Shown here piece after piece: positions 2,321 to 26,082 of a DNA stretch of 64,000 bases. Both the position numbers and the translations under genes were made by a program. Numbering within the stretch: position 1 is the stretch's first letter; each line of letters opens with the position of its first letter. The DNA is from Xestospongia bergquistia (Eukaryota > Porifera > Demospongiae > Haplosclerida > Petrosiidae), in assembly GCA_963965975.1 (NCBI GenBank), contig OZ014411.1:188501-252500 (forward strand). Direction: 5' to 3'. Under the pieces are notes generated by a model. The model was not told the origin of the DNA. It made no database searches and worked only from the letters and a program-made list of their open reading frames with translations.

Positions 2321-2440
2321 AATGGGGAAGTTAATAATTTTATTTTAAAATACTTAACTATTAATAATAATTATTAAAAGTTATTGCGAGGAATCCACTA
2401 TTAATAAACTGATAACATCTTGTGGTATTTCCCCAAAAAG

Positions 2441-5400
2441 ATGGCAGAACGCAGTAATAGTGTATTCGTTGGAAGCGGCTTGCCCAGCTTTGTACGCGAA
2501 CATCATTTAAAAGATCACTTTAAAGATTTGAGCGATGATATATCTCATATTCGATTGATTCGTGACAAAGAAACCAAACGGTTCAAAGGACACTGTTTTA
2601 TAACCTTTCGATCTCAAGAGTCAGCTCAATTAGCTGTAAAGAAGTACAACAAGTCGTTGTTGCTTGACAAATTCAAATTAAAAGTAGAATTTGATAAAAA
2701 TCCTGTCTTATTAGAAAGATTACCTTCTCCACAAGACATTTCAAAGAAGCCACAACATAGAAAAAGGCACACTAACAAAAAACAACAACAGAGATCGTTA
2801 ACACCAATAATGGCTGGTCAAGAAAGCCAATTTCAGCCTTTTGATAGTCCTGAGAAAGAAGAAGATTGGCCTGAACTTAGTCAACCAAGTGAAATGTTGT
2901 CATCTACAAATTATTATGACAGCGAAACAAGTACAACTACACACATAAGTCAACATGTTTACTCAATGTCTTATATACCACATGATATTCAACCATTGTT
3001 ATGTCAGCCCTTAATTGCTACTGACTCTCAACAGGGAGGTACGTCTATGTCTGACAATGAAACAAGTACTGCAGCATACTTGAGTCAACCTACTACTTAC
3101 TCAATGCCTTCTTCACTACCTAGTGTTCAACCATTGTTAAGTCAGCCCTTAATAACTACTGACTCTCAACAAGAAGGTATGTCTATGTATGACAATGAAG
3201 CAACTGCAATGACATATATAAGCCAATTTTTTTACTGAATGCCCTTTTTTCCACCTAATCATAACCAATTTTTATCTTTCAATACCTATAGAGTCTTGGC
3301 AGAAAGATGTGTCTATATCTAACAAAGAAGTCTCAACAACTGTACTGGACATTGAAGAGCCACTACCACCTCCTATATCTCTAGATCCATCACTTGAAGT
3401 TCTATTGATTTCAGCAGATAAAAATTCTCAGGCCATGTTAGCTGATTTTTCAGTAAATTCTAATGAGAACCTATCTGAGATACATACAAGAGAATCCAGT
3501 GAATCTGATGGTGTTGATCAAAGCAGACATTCAGCTTTTGGTAAATCTCCACCTGTTGTTAGTGTGAGTCCTGAGATGATCAAGGTTCATCCAAGAAGGT
3601 ATTAATTATCATTTGTACAAGAGAATAGAGATATATCAAATCTCTGTACTAAAATTTTACTACATTTTCAAGAGTTTAACACAAATAGATATGTATGAAA
3701 TATATTTCTTGGATAGACAAAAAGGTCTCAATAGCTGTTGATAGTATAAGATAGCTACTTGTTGATAAATATAATAGCAATGGATGTAACTATAAAACAT
3801 TCCCTTATCATATGCATATCTGATTCATTGTGAGAATAGTTCTATTGTATACAGTTCAGTATACTTGGACATTGCAGGATCTTCATATTAATTAATATGT
3901 TATACTCTATTCATTTCAACAGTATTATGTATTATCATGTCTTCATTTTATTTAATTAGGATAACTATGTCACAGCACCTTTATGCTTATTTTATGAATG
4001 ATGCTACACAAGATATTAAGGCATTTAATAATGGAAGGGGCAAACTTACGTTTCAATCAGGAAATTTATACATCGAAGCTTCTACCTCTAATATGATTGA
4101 TGATTTCCTGAACAATGTTCTAGTACGATATTCAGAGACAGAATTGCCAATTACTAGAGAGCAATGGACTGAACTAATGGCTAATGAATCTAATAAATTT
4201 AATTCTCTTGTGTCTCCATTTCGAACAAATCCTAATGTTGAGATTATTCCATTACAGGACCCCATTCCTCGGGTAGTATTTTGTGGCAAGACTGAAGCTG
4301 TTAACTCAGCTTATGAATATTTCTATTCTAGTTTTGGGAAACAGATAATAGTAAATAGGTGAGTAAGATATAATATATATTAAATATAATAGTAAATGGA
4401 ATTAACATATATTGATATATAATATGTGTATTAAGAACATATACTTTGCAATGACATATTAAATATGTTGATTGAGTTCATATTTAATATAGTAGATTAT
4501 GATCATGAATACTGTTAAGGCTGTTCAGATGTACTATTTTCTTTTTTGTTTTACTTATAGCATTAAACTTGAAGCATTACAAAAGCTTTATCCTGATATT
4601 GACCAGAAAATGTTGGACAAATTTCAAGTTATTCTTACATTTGGCACTGGGATAATTACTCTAGATGGTTTAACAGAAAATGTTCACTCTGTTAGATGTG
4701 AAGTTGAACAGCTTTTGTTGCAGATACAAGTTGGTGTACTTCCACCTCTTAAGCCTATTCTCTACCTTTCCTTTAAGAGAAGGATATCATGTCTGGGAAG
4801 TCAAGTTGTAATTATAGATGATTCTAAAGGTACTCGTAATGTTTGTTGTACTACAAGAGAGACAGTTCAAGAGTTACTTGAAATTAGCCAATCTCCATAT
4901 CGAAGAGAGGTTCGTATTATGTCCTCCACAGTTCAACAAGACTTAAGTCACAAGTATTCTAAAGATATTGAGCTTATTGAGCAGGACCACCTCATTGAAA
5001 TCACTTGGGAGGAGCAGAAGGCAATCTTGCGAGGCTTTGTAGTATCTGACTTGAATTCTGCTAAGTCAAAGTTGTTAAGTAAAGTGAAAATTTTGAGTAA
5101 AGTAAAGAGAGCTCTTCAATGTCCTTATCCTATATCTTCCTACATTCATTATATTCTATTTAAACAAGAACAATCAGAGGAAACAAAAGTATTTGTGTCC
5201 AACCTCAAAGTAAAACTGACTTCACAAAATGAAAAAGTTTATATAGAAGGTCCAGACAGTTCTATTGCAGAAGAAGAGAAGAAAGTGATCAACTTCTTTG
5301 CTCCTCTAGAGCTCTTGTACAAAGCATTTTCATATGAGTCTGATTGTTGTTTCATTTCACAAATTGAAAGAACTTGTCTTCGTGACTTACATAAACAATA

Positions 5401-16228: not shown

Positions 16229-19200
16229 TTAGTCATCTTCATTAAACAGTAATGATTCTCGTCTCATTACCACTGACACCACTGACACTGAACTGGTTTC
16301 ACATATATAAGCAGGAGATCCAGGAGACATCAAAGGAATATCTGTATCATCTAAAGTAGAAAATGGTGCAGGTGTCTTGTATAACATTTTGACTTTTGGA
16401 GTTATTTTTTGTAAGCAAGACTTTAACAGACGATCCCAGACATGAAAGAGGATAATTCCACAGAATACTACAAATGACACTAGTACCATAGCAACACTTA
16501 ATATGTCACTTAACTTTGACTTTTTACACCTTTGTACATTTACATAAGCCATAAACATGAGGTTAAGAAAAAAAGACATCTCCAGACATGCCAAAGGTAA
16601 ATGTCGATATATTCCTCTCAAAAGGAAGTACATTGATATAATAAAAATTAAAATACATGTTAGAACGTCTAAACTGACAGTAGCTTCTGTATCTAGAGAA
16701 ACAACAAATGCTAAGACAACACGAACTAGGAGTAAAAGTCCTGTCCAAAAACGACACTTGTCCTTATATGGACCTCCATATGCATCAAAGAAAGGTTTCA
16801 TATACTTTAACAACTTATGGCAGCAGCACATGTACTTTGATAGAGGTCCTTCAAATAATGGTATAGTGAGAAGGTAGAAAGTGTATGGAATAATTAGTAA
16901 AATGAGTACAGCCATTGAGAATAGGAACAATGGTAGATGACAGTAACCTCTGAGATATTGGACATTAGCATCAATGTACCACCTCAATAATGTGACATTA
17001 TTCTTACCTCTACATTGAATATTGGTATAGTGGAGGACCTGAAAAACAGTTCGTATTAGTTTGGTATATGAAAGAAGGATCATAGTCGCTAGTACTGGAA
17101 TTGCTTGTCTTCCAACAATACGAACCATTTTGCTAGAATATTGTGATAATATTATTATGAGTATGAGGAGAAACCAAACATAGCCTGGAAAGATAAATTG
17201 TAGCCATGCCTTATGGCAAGAGCTCAAATTATGATAGAAACAAGTCTCAACATTTATATCTAGATTAACCCAGGAAAAAAAATGTCTAAGAATTGGAATA
17301 TTTCCAGTAGGAAAAAAAAATGGTTCATATATTTTGACAACATTAGCATAGAATATAACTCCATTGACTGTACCCACAGACACTGTTAGATTTAAAGTAA
17401 TTAAAAAAGCTACCAATGCTATGCCAGCAACAGCAAATGGAATAATAAGAGCTAAGTAGTCATTAGTACATTGTCCACATCGATTGGAACCTAACATGAG
17501 ACTGAATCCCTCAGCACATTGTCCACAGAGTAGTCCAGATCGATTATAAAGACATTGTGCATTGGGTGATGTCATTTTAAAATGAATGGTATTATCATTA
17601 CAATAATCAAAGGGACAGTTCTGATAAATAATGAGACAGTCTGAGTCATTTTGATAACCAATCCACATATTACCATCTCTAGTAATAATTTGAGTGTTAA
17701 TATCACAAGTTATTGGAGGAGTATTTAATTCATATCTGCAAACACAAGTGTCATTCAATAATGGAAATCCAATTGGACAAGAATCAATGGTAATACTGAT
17801 AACTTTAGCTTGGGAGTTATGTAAAGGATCTACAATTGAACTTTCAAGTGTTGCATAGATATCTGTAGCATTTATCAAATCAGGATTTGCACTTAATGTG
17901 ATGGTTACATTCGTACAAGTAGCATTTAGTCTCTTATTGTCAGCTTGCACATTGGATGAACTATCTGGTGATGACAATTTTATGACACCCTTTGTTAGAC
18001 CATTCAATAAGCCAACAGTAGCTAGTGATATATTGACATCAATCCCAGGCATTGCAGTAACATTCATCTTTTGAATAGAACAGTTTGGTTTGTGTGATAC
18101 ACAAAAACACACTTCAATAGGATCTGATGACACTACTGATAGACCATCTTGTTTAGGATAGTGAAAAAAATTATTAAATCTACAATCATCAATTTCACCT
18201 CCATACAATACATCACCTGATATGTTAGCTGTATTGTTGACAAAATATAAACCAGCACTAGCATTAGATGGAATAGCTTGAAAGGTACACTTTGTATAAA
18301 TGTCTGTATTAAGAAGTTGTGATACAAAGATTCCTCCACCTGACTTACTAGCGTGATTATTGACAAATGATACATTTGTTTGTTCCTTTAGGAATAATTG
18401 GGAAGATTTGTATAAAGCAATACCTCCACCATAAACACCTGAATTGTTTACAAATATGTTTGTTTTATCAAATGTTATTAGGCTGTTGAAACTCACTAAA
18501 CCAGTTGTGTTATGATTACTTACCTCAATTTGGTCAAAAATAACGTCATGAATGTTGACTAATACCACAGCAGATTGAAATACATCATGTATGATGGTTA
18601 CTTTATTGGAATAAAATGAAACATTTGTAAACCAAAAGCTATTTTTTGAAGAAAAAGCAGCAGAAGCACCGAGATACAAACCTGATCCAACATATGCAGT
18701 ATTATTATATATAGTGGAGTTACTAAATTTAACAATGCCATACCCACGAGAAAAAATGTTCACTCCTCCTCCAAAGCTCTGAGCAGTATTACTATATATA
18801 ACACAGTTCTGAAACTCAATACTACTCTCCCCATGCAATTGAATGTTCACTCCTCCTCCAAAGCTCTGAGCAGTGTTATTGTATATAACACAGTTCTGAA
18901 ACTCAATACTACTCTCCCCATGCAAATCAATGTACACTCCTCCTCCATATCTCAAAACAGCATTATTGTAGATAGTGCAGTTACTAAACTCAATACTGCC
19001 ATTGCCATATCTGGCTGCATAAATGAACAATCCTCCTCCTTCATTATTCTGAGAAGTATTATTAAATATAGTGCATTTATGAAACATAATACTGCTACTT
19101 CCTTCAAGGAAATCAATTGACACACCTCCTCCATTTCCCTTTGAAGTATTATTATACATAGTGCAATCACAAAACTCAATTCTACCATTCGTGGATGTCT

Positions 19201-19803
19201 CAGAATAAATGTACAATCCTTCTCCCTCATCTGTCTTAGCAGTATTGCTATATATAACACAGCTACTAAACTCAATACTGCTATTCCCATGCAAATGAAT
19301 TGATGCTCCTCCTCCTTCATTATTCTGAGCAGTATTGCTATATATAGTGCAGTTATGAAACATAATACTGCCATTGCTATATCTGTCTGAATAAATGTGT
19401 AATCCTCCTCCTTCATTATTCTGAGAAGTATTATTAAATATAGTGCAGTTATGAAACATAATACTGTTACTTCCTTCATGGAAATCAATTGACACACCTC
19501 CTCCATACTTTTGAGCAGTATTGCTGTATATAGTACAGTTATGAAAGTCAATACTACCATTTCCTTCATTTGAATGAATGCTTACTCCTCCTCCATATTT
19601 CCGACCAGTATTGTTGTATACAACACAGTTACAAAACCCAATACTACCATTCCTATGTGAATGAATAAGTATTCCTCCTCCTCCAATATTGTGTGAAAAT
19701 ATACTGTGTTTAATGACTACATCAACCTCAGTATCATGTATGAAAAAATGAGTAGCTCCAAAACTCAATGTAAAGTTTGATTGCACAATATTAACTTTGG
19801 ATA
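16229..19803 (-). CDS. Beta-helix repeat/multi-pass membrane protein, 3' part of a transposon-split gene
   Basis: An open frame of 1191 codons including the stop, running from the transposon edge. The first third holds about ten units of about 32 residues with GGG(V/L).I..... SI.F.NC.IY.NT, typical of right-handed parallel beta-helix proteins and of chlamydial Pmp-like repeats. A middle extracellular part with many N-glycosylation sequons follows. Then comes a Cys-rich motif (GLLCGQCAEGFS, CGQC), and about eight hydrophobic segments end in a cytosolic tail. Families of this layout are expanded in sponges; the ligand is unknown. Alone, this part lacks the signal sequence encoded at 25356-26045. 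The frame could start only at a Met in the transposon end (19852), giving 1207 residues without a signal peptide. Confidence 0.8.
18720..19690 (-). repeat. Tandem repeats of about 96 bp encoding the beta-helix rungs
   Basis: Around ten diverged copies of about 93-105 bp, each encoding GGG....NGSI.F.NCTIYNNTA. The two copies around 18765-18930 are nearly identical, which suggests recent unit duplication or conversion. Confidence 0.85.
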
Positions 19804-19945
19804 CACTGTTAAAACAAGGGTGTACATTTACACCAAAATAGGTGTGCACCATACACTTTAAAAACTCTACCCCTAGGGTGTAAATCTAAGACTGATATTT
19901 ACACCATATTGGTGTATATCGCAACTCTTTCAAGTGTAAATTGGA
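19804..19945. repeat. Left terminal and subterminal repeats of the transposon
   Basis: CACTG terminus followed by TTTACACC/GGTGTAAA motifs at about 19826, 19878, 19900 and 19911, with degenerate ones nearby. They are likely transposase-binding sites by analogy with CACTA elements. Confidence 0.7.
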
Positions 19946-20114
19946 AAATTATTTTAAAATTGAAATCTGTAACATTATTTTATTATTATATAAAACACTC
20001 AATATAATACATACCTGTTATAATAAATAAACTATAATAAACTAATAAACTATACATTATATAAATAAACTATAATAAAACTAAACTATAATAAACTAAT
20101 AAACTATACATTAT

Positions 20115-21970
20115 CTAATTATAAAGTATACTGTCCATCTTCTTTAGAGATGTAACAATCTCAATAACTGCAGGGGTATCTTGTTGTGAGTCTTCTAGTC
20201 CAAATACATAGTGCTGGATCATTAATAAAAGCGACTGGACAGGCTTTGGGTATGCTATATCATAAAGGAAGTAAGAGCCAACCAGGTGGATCAAGGCACT
20301 CTCAAAAGAACTGAGTTCACATGTGACTTCTTCTTCTACCATGATATGGAAAGTGGTCTCTTCAGCAGAATGGCATACGATCATGTATGGAGCACTGAAC
20401 TGAACTTTTGCGGAAAAGACTGACAAGTCATCTGAATTCTAAAGTGAAATTAAAGAACTTTTATGAATATTAAAAAAAATTTTGAGGAAATCTCTGAGTC
20501 AAATTGTTAAATCACAACCAAAAACATAACAATTACCTAAAGTTAACATTACCTTCACAAACTGTACCAGCCTCTCATGGCGGCTTTTAGGAATCAACAA
20601 TTCAGATAATAATTGAAAGGCTACTAAACCTATTACAAAAAATCATGTTATTGTATTCACTTGAATTATAGTGAAGCACCTTTATCCACAAGTCCTTCAC
20701 TTTGCTCATCAAGAGTGGTGAGAAGCTGTTTCAGTTTTGGCCTATGCTTGAATTCCAATCGAGAATAAGCAATTATCTTTTTTTCCCATGTTGGCCAACT
20801 TTCCATGAGTGAATGGATGCTAGTCTTTTCATCCAAGCCAATAATAGTTTTGAATTCCATCCTAAACTGGAATAGAGAGGCAATTTACACGTGTAAAATA
20901 ATTACTATGTTAAATTGTTTTAAGAGATAACTTACTACTTTCCGAATCTTCAATGATGGGTATTGCTCGAGGATTTCTACAACTGGAGGTTGAACATTTG
21001 TTATCCATTTCCGTCTACTAGTAAATGTGCTGCTGGTCAAAGATTGTATTGTAGCAAGGGAACGGTCCTTTTTTTGTTTAGAACACCCGTGCTGTAATTC
21101 AGCCAATTTTGTTGTCAGCATAACATCATCTAGATCATCCATACATGTACTTGTGTCACTTCCAAGACGTTTTGAGGTCTTCTGACGTTTTGGAGATGGC
21201 TCAATACTAACAGAATCTGTTTTATAAGTAGATGGATAACGAAGAAACTTGAATCGGTCCCGTAGCTTTTTTTCCCAAGAACCCTAAGAAATGAACAATT
21301 TCTTAGTCATAACAAGTTCACAATAAAAAAATTACCACACACTTACATAGCCAGTAGAGCCAATTTCATCTTTAAGTATTGGATAGGTTTCAATCAGTTT
21401 ACGACACACAGTGTTGTACTGATCACTTGAAGGGGTTCTTGTATGTATCATCATCGACATTGAGAGAGCTTGGATGATCTCTGTTCTCACTCTTCTAGTG
21501 ATCTGACCAGTGGCTAAGGCTTCCTCTGTCCGGAGAGAGAAAGCAGAGGGTATCACAAATGTGTGATGCCAATTTTGAGATGGGACATTTAAAGTTGAGG
21601 AACAATGACTGCCATTTACGTCAAGACTTCTGTTTTCCTAGCAATGATAATTGTTATGATAATTTGCTTAGAGAAAAACTTTATATCAAGCACAGATGGG
21701 CAACAGTCAACACTAGATAACATAGTGACAAAATATATCACTGACCTTTTTAGCAGATATTGTACTGTCTATAATCTTTTTCAACTTGACCCTATCGGGT
21801 ATTTTCTCAGCAACTTCCTTGAGATGTCCATCGCTCATAGAAAGAAACGTTTCTCCGTCAATGGAATGGCTTTGAAAGTTGTCCAAAACTTTCTGAGGGA
21901 TTCCTTTGGATGACAGGAACAGAGACAGTTCATCAGCAGACAAATCTTCCAATACAACGCAACTCGCCAT
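20115..21970 (-). CDS. SAM-domain protein encoded inside the transposon
   Basis: Six exons join in phase: 21970-21746, 21637-21347, 21283-20936, 20866-20680, 20629-20553 and 20438-20115, all GT-AG, for 483 residues. Residues about 8-66 (LSADELSLFLSSKGIP ... IPDRVKLKKII) form a sterile alpha motif, a protein- or RNA-binding helical bundle. A basic serine-rich linker (SPKRQKTSKR) follows, with a possible nuclear signal. The C-terminal half ends in an acidic YPKPVQSLLLMIQHYVFGLED-type motif that resembles SAMD3-like animal proteins. No stop or frame shift was found, in contrast to the transposase. The role is unknown. A TNPA-like DNA-binding or assembly partner, or a captured host gene, are both possible. 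Confidence 0.75.
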
Positions 21971-22029
21971 TGAAAAGTAGAGAGACTGAGTGCAGCTGTT
22001 AAGGCAGGTGCTAAAACTGGTTGAAGTTT

Positions 22030-22041
22030 TGCGCATGCGCA
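22030..22041. promoter_or_regulatory. NRF1-type palindrome between the two transposon genes
   Basis: TGCGCATGCGCA is a perfect match to the animal NRF1 consensus. It lies in the 139-bp gap between the divergent start codons (21970 and 22110). It is a good candidate for a shared bidirectional promoter element, inferred from sequence only. Confidence 0.55.
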
Positions 22042-22109
22042 ACACCATGCTGTTTAGAAAAATAGAAGGCAGGTGGCAGTTATCATAAACCGTTCTCAAC
22101 AGATAACTC

Positions 22110-25100
22110 ATGGATCCCGGAAATATCAAAGTTTGCCCACTGTGTTCATTTATGGTACCAAGCCTCATGTACTTGCTTAAACATGTTCGAGAAGTCCATG
22201 CACACAGACCTGGATTTTGTATCACCTGTTGTCTCGGTGGTTGTCGAAAACAATTTAGAAAATTCGAAGTTTACAGAAATCATGTGTATGATTTTCATAC
22301 GGATTCTGAGCCTGTTATTCAATGTTCTACCTTTCAAGATCAGGATGACCCTGATCATTGGTTGAATTGTGAAACTGACTCATTCAATGACCTTGTCAAA
22401 TTCTGGTATTGACCACACACGGCTTCAGGGATTTGACCAGTTATTTAGTGCTAACTCCTTTTATACTAATCCATTTTTGGGATTAGAAACTCAGCATGCA
22501 CAGCTGAAATATTACAAAGAGTCGTTGAATTTTGTGGTAAGAAGTATTATAATAAGATATTTGTATTGGTCAGTAATAACTTTATGTTCATGTTATTTAC
22601 AAGGAGCCAGAGCCAATTCTTCTTGGCACCGAAAGACAGTGGACAGGGAGTGGGAAAAAGAGAAGACATGCTGAAGTGCGAGAAGAAATGATGTATATTC
22701 CTTTATTGAAAACCATTCAGTCCCTCTTTTATAATCTTGATGTTGTGAGAATGGTATGTTCATAAGTAAATATGTACACTTTTAGAAAACACATTATTAA
22801 ATATCTATCTAGATGGGCCATAATTCAGATGATGGAATTATTAGAGACTATTGTGATGCCACTATGTTTTCAAAACATCCCCTCCTAGCATTAGACTCAA
22901 ACTTTCTTCAGATATTTTTATATTAAGATGATTTAGAGGTATGTAACCCACTAGGTTCAAAACGTATTATCCACAAGCTGGGTAAGTTATTCATTCATCC
23001 TTGTGATATAATTTACAGTCTATCTCCGCCTCTATGCAATATAGCTGTATTTTATTTTGTCCTTGGAAACCTTCCTCCTTTATTCCGCTCAAAGGTGAGC
23101 CGGATTCAACTAGCAGCTATTGTAAAGAGTGAACTTTTGAAGAAGTATGGTGCTAACAAAATTTTGAAGCCTATTATAGAAGACATAAAGAAATTGATGA
23201 GCAATCACATCTACTGTATCTTGTTAACTTCTTGTTGACTCTTTTATAGGAAACAGGATATATGTTTCAGATCAGAGGACAGCCTCAAATGAAATGGGGA
23301 ACTCTATGTTTGGTTCCTGCTGACAACTTGGCAAGCAATATATTAGGCGGCTTTAAAGAAGGTTACACTGCCCATAGAGGTTGTCGTCACTGCCTTGCTC
23401 TACCATCTGACATTCAGTCAATATTCACTGAATCCAAACTTATATTACGTAACCCTGATGAACACAAAGCTAACTGTGATGAACTTGACAAAGCAACTAG
23501 TCAACGAGACCGAGACAAACTATCTATGGAATTTGGGATCAACCAGAGGTCAATTTTGGATGAGTTACTGTACTTCAAAGTTTGTTCAGGAGCCCTTGTA
23601 CAGGATGTCATGCATGATGTCCTTGAAGGTACAAAAGCATACTTGCTTATTCATTTAATTAAAATCTTCTATATGTATTCTTGAGTATGAAACAAAAGAA
23701 CTCCTTCAGCAACACATAGACAAAGATGGTTACTACTCTTTAGAGTATCTAAACCAACAAATAACTGGCTTTGAACTAGGATTGATGGAGATGAAGAATC
23801 GACCATCAACTATTGCTTTATCTACTCTACGAAGTAATGATCACAAACTGAAGCAAGAAGGTAACAAAGGTTTCAACATCATGTTTATTTTTTTGACTTT
23901 ACTACTTTGTAGCTGCACAAATGTGGTTGCTAGGAAGGGTTCTACCATTGATGGTTGGGGACAAGGTTCCTAGTGGTGATGAATTTTGGATCAATTATTT
24001 GGACTTATTGGAGATTGTTGATATCCTAATGGCCCCAGAGCTCACTGAAGATGATGTAGCTAATCTAGCAACACTAATTTCTGACCACCATCAACAGTTC
24101 AAGCTACTGTATCCTAATGCCTCCATCACTCCTAAAATACACTATATTGTGCATATGCCAAGGTTGATTCTTGAGTGAGTTTATGCAAATAACAAGTTCA
24201 GACAGACATATACATGTATGCAATTTTTATATTTTTATATTTTTAACAGATTTGGACCACTAAGACAACACTGGACAATGCGTTTTGAAGCAAAACATTC
24301 CTATTTCAAAAAAATCACTCAAAGTGTTGGTAACTTCTACCATACACTCTGACCATGCGTCATCAGAAACTTCAGTGCTACCATAGGATGAATAATTTTG
24401 AGTATCATTCTGGAACATTGGATGTTGGTCCAGGTGAATACATAATTTCTCATTTGCTATCATTTTCACCCCATTCATCTAGGTGACATTGTGTCTGCTT
24501 TGGTTGCTCCACCAGAGTTAGTTGAGTGCTCAGGAGATATTACAAGGTTATTATGATTACACTGTTTGAATCTCCTACCTATGTGTACCTTGTTTTAATT
24601 AATTTCCGCTAACAAATTTCTGAGAATAACTCTACCTGAAAGTATTACAATTTTAAACATGCAATCACTAAAGTCCCTCCCTTCCTAACAAGTGACTTGG
24701 CTATGAGACTAGCTATATTTGTTGTTGTAAATTTAGAACTGCCTTGATTTGGCATCAAGTACTTATAAGGTTATTTTGTGATTCTTTATTACAGGGTTGT
24801 ATGGGTATTGACGGCACATTGTACAAGAAGTCTTGTGCCTTGGTGGTGAAGATGGACACAGATTATCCTGTGTTTGGGAAGCTGCTCAATATATTTGTCA
24901 TTGATTATAATGAAGTTTATTTTGAAGTGCAAGTTTTAAACACATTAGAATTCAATTATCACTATCATTGTTTTGTTGTTCAAATGTCCTCAGTTAAATC
25001 CACAGTCAAATACAATGACCTTTTTTCATTCCAACCACATCATATTAGAACAATGCCTGTTTGTCATTCAGTCATACACTGTATAGTTCCTAAACATTAT

Positions 25101-25112
25101 TTCACATCATGA
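22110..25112 (+). pseudogene. tnp2-type (CACTA/EnSpm) transposase gene, damaged
   Basis: Starts with a C2H2-like region (CPLC...HVREVH, CCLGGC...HVYDFH). Pieces 22604-22753, 22813-22981, 23045-23196, 23250-about 23628, 23683-23860, 23913-24174, 24250-24350 and about 24740-25112 encode a PF02992-like transposase. Landmarks are DDLEVCNPLGSKR, FYFVLGNLPPLFRSK, DNLASNILGGFKEGY, CRHCLALP, VMHDVLEG, MWLLGRVLPLMVGD and HWTMRFEAKHSYFKK. Lesions: an in-frame TAA at 22924-22926, where relatives have YYDD; a probable lost donor at 23197 (ATGAGC for GTGAGC, the phases fitting exactly); and a frame shift just before the TGA at 24350. A segment also seems to be missing near 22406-22428, because the only apparent intron there would be 23 bp. 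The junction near 23629-23682 could not be resolved. Confidence 0.75.
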
Positions 25113-25224
25113 TTTTAATAAATTAATAATAATTAATTTTAATAAATTATTAATAATAATTTATGATAATTAAGATTTATGAGTTAGAAAAGTAAAAGGC
25201 AGAGTAAATCATATCATCATTGAC

Positions 25225-25355
25225 CAATTGTTATGGTGAATGCATGTGTTTTACACCTAACTGCTTTACTTTACACCCTAAGGTAGATTTACACCCCTAA
25301 ACCAAGAATAAGTTACACTCTGGTATACGATATTTACACCCCATTTTTAACAGTG
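25225..25355. repeat. Right terminal and subterminal repeats of the transposon
   Basis: TTTACACC-type motifs at about 25231, 25252, 25268, 25310 (degenerate) and 25333, then TTTTTAACAGTG at the terminus. It mirrors the left end. Confidence 0.7.
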
Positions 25356-26045
25356 TAGGCTATTAAACTGGCCATTATAATATATATATGCATTCCCTCC
25401 AAAACCCTCAGGAGCTCCATTATTGGAGAATGAGGAATAACCAATTAACACATCAAAACTATTGACTAGACAGAGTCCAAAACCAGAACCATCCCGGACT
25501 GATACCCATTCCAACGTGACATTAATGATGTCAACAAGGTATAAGCTATTACTAATTTTTTGGTCATAAATGTAAGTATCAAACATACAGTTTGCTATTA
25601 GCAGTGATTTCATTGCAATGTTTCTGCTACTAGTAAATTGTATACCAGTTCTGTCGTTATCACTACACATTATTACTGAGGTAGATTGCATAACTGTCTC
25701 ATGAAAACCTTGTTCTATATGACCCAGTCCCTGTAGAGTTATATTACTTACATTGCTGATATTTAATATACCTTGTAGAGTGTGAGTTCCTTCTAGGAAG
25801 TAGAAGACAGTATCATCAGTGAAGTAAGAACTATAGTCAGCAACATAATAGGAGAGGTTATGACAAGGTAGGTTAGTAGTAGGACAAGGTATTCCATTAG
25901 GAGCTGCACAAACATAATATTCAGAAGCAGTGACATGTCCACTGAAGATATACACCATAATTGTTGTTATACAATAGATATGACACCAACTCGTGACGAC
26001 AGCGGGTCCAAAAAAATTACCCGAGATAGAAGACATTGTAGACAT
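25356..26045 (-). CDS. Signal-peptide end of the transposon-split beta-helix membrane protein
   Basis: 230 codons from the ATG at 26045 up to the transposon edge. A hydrophobic segment (about residues 18-38, ITTIMVYIFSGHVTAS) looks like a signal peptide. Then come paired cysteines and hydrophobic repeats (NISNVSNITLQGLG) that begin a beta-helix. As it stands the frame runs two more codons into the transposon and stops (232 residues). Joining to 19803 after dropping one TA continues the frame without a change: FNSL then SKVNIVQSNF. The pre-insertion protein was therefore 1420 residues. In this allele the gene is probably disrupted unless the element is removed by splicing or excision. Confidence 0.8.
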
Positions 26046-26082
26046 CGTCTAAGTTTGAATTATTAGTGACTTTTGAAGACAC

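Follow-up and report, generated by a model that had tools for sequence, protein, structure and literature searches.

Our analysis suggests that the gene for a sterile alpha motif (SAM) protein, which stands beside the transposase of a transposon, is an old and integral second gene of an animal CACTA-like (CMC-type) clade, and that its product acts together with the transposase on the element ends. We put the probability of this reading at about 0.6. The same pairing of the two genes recurs across very distant element families, which makes the SAM gene look like a long-established working component of these elements and not like a stolen host gene. The features that carry this reading, namely the structure of the gene, its place within the element, its recurrence across lineages, its head-to-head order with the transposase, the correlated divergence of the two genes and the repeats at the ends, are all directly observed. 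Against it stand the weak constraint on the SAM gene in young copies, the spread of copies whose SAM gene is broken, and the 80 SAM loci that have no partner among the matches listed.

A CACTA-like element of a recently mobile family

The window, i.e., the whole 64,000-nucleotide stretch of DNA analyzed here (C1:188501-252500, in a searched genome of 146 Mb and 21 contigs), contains a CACTA-like element of 5552 bp at 19804..25355, delimited by its inverted ends and TA flanks. Wnt matches above the Pfam cutoff at three loci mark this genome as that of an animal, and a set of three Wnt genes would suit a demosponge. The inverted ends read CACTGTTAAAA.. at 19804 and ..TTTTTAACAGTG at 25355; the longer end sequences are CACTGTTAAAACAAGG.. 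on the left and the inverse of CACTGTTAAAAATGGG.. on the right. The TA target-site duplications lie at 19802..19803 and 25356..25357, the left one being placed on the basis that the host open reading frame (ORF) is unbroken once the element and one TA are removed. This removal in silico leaves one uninterrupted minus-strand ORF (window 26048-16232; 1421 codons), which indicates that the element inserted within a long host reading frame. The two parts of the split host ORF lie at 16232-19801 and 25358-26048 on the minus strand, and its product, judged by eye, contains numerous beta-helix-like repeats and, after them, several hydrophobic stretches that resemble membrane spans. By eye, the first 750 bp of a separate SAM locus, L081 (C10:3740200-3744600), resemble the membrane part of this host gene, and the SAM gene next to that host-like stretch has open exons. 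Judged by this resemblance, elements from two different lineages may be located within or close to genes of one host group.

Copies at C12:2661241 and C6:5730967 are identical to the window element across all 5327 bp compared and stand beside left flanks that differ from the window's, so the family transposed recently. A TA/TA target duplication was present in all three family copies for which the right end and its flank were located. The bare 11-mer CACTGTTAAAA was non-diagnostic genome-wide (888 matches, compared with 244 for a reversed control), and at six of six inspected loci outside the element no GGTGTA repeat occurred within the next 150 bp; for both reasons it was dropped as a copy finder. 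When the end was combined with the first subterminal repeat, the query returned 44 genome matches versus 0 with the reversed control, and 25 of these 44 are left ends of the window family (family A).

Class of the transposase and of the element

The transposase gene, which is probably tnp2-like, occupies 22110..25112 on the plus strand, has several exons and is broken in the window copy; its end was set by eye from the likeness of the last ORF to the C-terminus of the transposase of another lineage, L061. The window copy has a 166-bp deletion that 3 of the 15 readable copies show and the other 12 do not, and its premature stop and lost splice donor each occur in 4 of 19 readable copies. The remaining frame breaks look like introns by eye.

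Elements of the CMCT clade are described as having CA..TG termini, target duplications of 2-5 bp and transposases that carry the motifs C(2)C and H(3-4)H (PMC12730594). The termini found here agree with this description of CMC/CMCT elements (CACTGTTAAAA..TTTTTAACAGTG in the window family; CACTGTAAAAT at both ends of L075, an element of another lineage), and so do the target duplications (TA/TA in the family and CA/CA in L075). Family A transposases contain, by eye, CRHC and HYIVH as C(2)C and H(3-4)H motifs, and C-x2-C and H-x3-H were likewise seen by eye at equivalent places in the transposases of L069, L072, L073 and L061. In L071, CRHC was seen and the DNA read stops short of the H-x3-H exon, while L070 has HYMVH and a stop codon within its C(2)C. 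The transposases also show conserved stretches with D and E, candidates for the DDE/DDD catalytic residues. Profile matches stayed below threshold: the L061 lineage matched Pfam Transposase_21 at 17.1 bits (cutoff 28.6, E 0.0034), followed by DUF4218 at 13.1 bits (cutoff 27, E 0.087), and an L070 piece matched DUF4218 at a sub-threshold 15.4 bits (E 0.018). Neither Transposase_21 nor DUF4218 was matched by the family A transposase pieces searched.

Compared with plant CACTA elements, the ends here read CACTG instead of CACTA, and the target duplication is 2 bp, whereas the plant element Tgmt* is described as making 3 bp (PMC2613891). The animal TRC/CACTA element SmTRC1 likewise has 2-bp target duplications, and a tnp2-like transposase, which the transposase here probably resembles; TRC ends, however, begin with CCC (PMC1636069). 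The accessible portion of the SmTRC1/TRC description reports alternative splicing that gives rise to distinct ORFs and mentions neither a SAM protein nor a divergent second gene (PMC1636069).

The SAM gene and its product

The SAM gene of the window lies at 20115-21970 on the minus strand and has six exons, five GT..AG introns and an intact frame of 483 amino acids. Exon 1 (21746..21970) encodes the predicted SAM domain and ends at the donor GTCAGT; it is followed by exon 2 (21347..21637), exon 3 (20936..21283), which encodes a basic linker and whose 5′ intron is common to other lineages, exon 4 (20680..20866), exon 5 (20553..20629) and exon 6 (20115..20438), which encodes a conserved C-terminal domain and ends with the stop codon TAG. 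The coordinates of the original prediction, a six-exon gene of 483 residues, were thereby confirmed, and the window indeed contains this gene intact, inside the terminal repeats and divergent from a damaged transposase. An interval of 139 bp (21971..22109) separates the two divergent start codons and is probably the shared promoter of both genes.

The predicted N-terminal SAM domain exceeded the Pfam cutoff in a relative and stayed sub-threshold in the window protein. The window protein scored 14.6 bits against Pfam SAM_2, under the cutoff of 20.5, and weakly matched two SAM domains in the PDB (E 0.41 and 0.77), while the homologous exon of L070 exceeded the Pfam SAM cutoff (29.1 bits versus 20.5, E 1.2e-6). 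The SAM pieces of L073 (SAM_1, 16.8 bits versus 23; SAM_2, 16.2 versus 20.5) and L079 (SAM_1, 13.2 bits versus 23) were under the Pfam cutoffs. For the middle and C-terminal regions, searches of Pfam, NCBIfam and the PDB returned nothing credible. DNA binding by the protein was not supported by any match in Pfam or the PDB, and no relatives were found among viral contigs.

Head-to-head pairs of SAM and transposase genes across the genome

When the genome was searched with SAM and transposase protein queries and the matches were clustered, this identified at least 137 SAM loci and at least 131 transposase loci; the locus lists were compiled by hand, with adjoining exon matches of one locus often entered once. 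Among the matches listed, 57 of the 137 SAM loci have a transposase match within 9 kb; random placement averaged 3.0 such SAM loci and never gave more than 9 in 1000 trials. All but one of these paired loci (56 of 57 among the matches listed) are arranged head to head, and the last one consists of two adjacent pairs that had been fused by clustering, both of which show the same order when resolved. Tighter clustering with fewer queries gave 50 pairs within 9 kb, the two fused ones included, and every one of them is head to head. The 56 head-to-head pairs comprise 22 of the window family and 34 non-family pairs, again among the matches listed. Hits to Pfam Transposase_21 were kept out of this count and compared to the SAM loci separately: two of the 39 genome hits have a SAM locus within 9 kb, one of them head to head (C1:20157901), and the pairing therefore looks like the mark of one transposase clade and not of all tnp2 elements.

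Within the window family, 24 of the 25 left ends carry the SAM gene, whole or partial, the exception being C6:6302873. Three of the 24 SAM-bearing copies are incomplete, with exon 1 missing at C5:6880439 and C4:5661298 and exon 3 missing at C13:851098. Conversely, SAM exons have been retained despite lost transposase sequence at C5:6880439, C4:5661298, C1:27277138 and C1:12670042. Together with the head-to-head pairs in distant families, these counts uphold the original prediction that the SAM gene belongs to the element and recurs with it; the genome search for flanked copies did not return a single-copy host gene alongside element copies devoid of it. The accompanying description of the gene as a passenger is unsupported, as the SAM gene looks like a second core gene.

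Divergence, a shared intron and selection

Six non-family lineages were read in DNA: L069, L070, L071, L072, L073 and L079/L061, the last of which has a transposase that is mostly one exon. In pairwise comparisons of lineages, transposase pieces are 36-68% identical and SAM pieces 19-43%, and recognizable exons and conserved residues persist across lineages whose SAM pieces are this divergent. The distances of the SAM and transposase pieces are correlated (Mantel r 0.69, exact p 0.0034; calculated from 20 of the 21 pairs among seven lineages, with exon pieces cut by hand), which is predicted by long shared descent and not by repeated capture. In family A, L071, L073, L079 and L081, moreover, the AG acceptor of an intron falls on one and the same codon, directly before an SW-x-KK/KR motif. 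The presence of this intron is only probable in L070, and the acceptor AG is absent in L069; the part of the gene that bears it was not found in the DNA read for L072.

Comparison of dN/dS between copies, which the original prediction had put forward as a check, gave weak support in young copies and a clearer signal between related elements. Synonymous distances within the window family are 0.01-0.024, and SAM omega is 0.46-0.93. A stop in SAM exon 1 is common to subfamilies A3 and A4, and three A3 copies in different places (C1:12670042, C4:548791 and C14:1907810) share an identical broken SAM sequence, which indicates that SAM is not needed in cis. Such copies, like those with a broken transposase, presumably spread by help in trans. 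The transposase pair L060/L061 has 2 synonymous and 9 non-synonymous changes (omega 1.2) and thus shows no constraint in young copies. Between related elements, SAM omega is 0.27 for L071/L075, 0.32 for L071/L078 (dS 0.33) and 0.55 for L071/L080, and transposase omega is 0.12 for L061/L066, where dS is nearly saturated. Synonymous sites are saturated among the distant SAM lineages.

Subterminal repeats and a possible role at the element ends

The outermost 150 bp on each side of the window element together hold nine occurrences of the hexamer GGTGTA or its complement TACACC, five subterminal repeats at the left end (19804..19953) and four at the right end (25206..25355), and the inner 5252 bp hold none. 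The motif was picked by eye after the ends had been read; in 2000 trials with shuffled ends, which preserved base content only, the maximum was 2. The ends of the L075 element hold eight occurrences of GGTGTCA/GGTGTTA and its interior one, a pattern that does no more than suggest a divergent binder matched with a divergent repeat. An automatic end search for L069, L070, L072, L073 and L079+L061 gave nothing convincing. The basic linker of the SAM protein contains an AT-hook-like GRP core in L079 and L081.

In the plant En/Spm system, TNPA recognizes short subterminal repeats, and TNPA and TNPD are both required (PMC2613891, PMC1636069); plant families differ in both the repeat and its binder (PMC2613891). 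The element described here resembles En/Spm in having end repeats and a second conserved gene. However, TNPA arises by alternative splicing of the TNPD transcription unit, whereas the second gene here is separate and divergent and encodes a SAM domain. A transposase accompanied by a separate DNA-binding protein (Myb/SANT) is also a feature of Nuwa-type Harbinger elements, which belong to another superfamily and use another second protein (PMC12730594).

By analogy, a TNPA-like function of the SAM protein as a DNA-binding or assembly factor, as originally proposed, appears plausible, since subterminal repeats and, in one lineage, AT-hook-like cores would fit it. We envisage that the SAM gene would be transcribed away from the transposase out of the short intergenic stretch that they share, and that the middle region and basic linker of its product would bind the GGTGTA-type subterminal repeats. 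The SAM domain may then multimerize the bound protein and draw the two ends together, with the C-terminal domain contacting the transposase. The SAM protein would also be needed for transposition, and would thus fill the job that TNPA has in plant En/Spm.

Alternative explanations

The SAM protein might instead be integral to the element as a regulator that represses or re-activates the shared promoter or counters host silencing, a reading that we consider rather unlikely. The 139-bp interval common to both genes would suit such a regulator, as would the spread of SAM-broken copies, and TNPA too regulates the Spm promoter (PMC1636069). The repeats, however, are located at both ends (5 + 4), and none is found in the inner part that contains the probable shared promoter, an arrangement that fits end recognition better. 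Regulatory and end-assembly roles are not mutually exclusive.

Less probable still is an ancient captured gene that rides along and has no role for the element. Weak constraint and stops in young copies speak for a gene of this kind, but its exons and conserved residues have been kept at 19-43% identity across lineages, omega is 0.27-0.32 between related elements (although 0.55 for L071/L080), and 24 of 25 copies retain the gene, including some that have lost transposase sequence. It is extremely improbable that the window family took up a host SAM gene recently and only once, because the same head-to-head pairing is present at 34 non-family loci among the matches listed and in deeply diverged lineages, several of them with a common intron position, so that this view would require an independent capture, for each of the distant pairs, of one gene at one position. 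Recurrence across lineages rules out a single recent capture, and no evidence was found in its favor.

Relation to SAMD3-like proteins

SAMD3 and SAMD3-like animal proteins, which the SAM protein may resemble in its C-terminal half, have a SAM domain first, followed by a C-terminal half of unknown kind. The interpretation of the SAM gene as an integral second gene can be extended to a broader proposal, to which we give slightly less than even odds: a large animal CACTA-like clade would have inherited a transposase and a SAM end-binding protein as a unit since early animal evolution, and the many annotated SAMD3-like genes would mostly be its second gene or domesticated descendants of it, possibly including vertebrate SAMD3. 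If this is true, a partner protein could be named for animal CACTA-like elements, a multi-copy group of “host” genes could be explained as mobile DNA, the TNPA/TNPD system would gain a testable animal counterpart, and SAMD3 would become a candidate for transposon domestication. Judged by titles and the opening of abstracts, full-text searches of open-licence literature listed no report of a SAM protein in CACTA/EnSpm elements or of a transposon-borne SAMD3; one of the papers listed deals with SAMD9 (PMC11346364).

SAM and transposase loci without a partner

Among the matches listed, 80 of the 137 SAM loci and 73 of the 131 transposase loci have no partner match within 9 kb. Reading of the DNA at unpaired SAM loci revealed a transposase remnant at L074 and, at L082, a head-to-head transposase piece that earlier searches had overlooked. 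Two further loci, L075 and L078, derive from the L071 lineage and have the SAM gene alone, between ends of the CACTGTAAAAT type; both ends are seen in L075, and those of L078 have decayed. L075 (C10:5236500-5244500) contains, at 2413-4651, a SAM-only element of 2.24 kb with inverted ends and CA duplications, and is a non-autonomous form that retains the SAM gene and shows no match to a transposase. At L081, no transposase was present within the 2.2 kb read upstream. The reading of unpaired SAM loci as host genes was rejected on these five loci; a host gene may be among the other 75 of the 80. Related transposase pieces are clustered at C1:18.19-18.78 Mb and C1:7.18-7.22 Mb, with no SAM match within 9 kb. 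Finally, at C4:6663203-6764665, an L072-like and an L071-like SAM gene lie on the same strand about 4.4 kb apart in three places, an arrangement that is perhaps a duplicated nested array.
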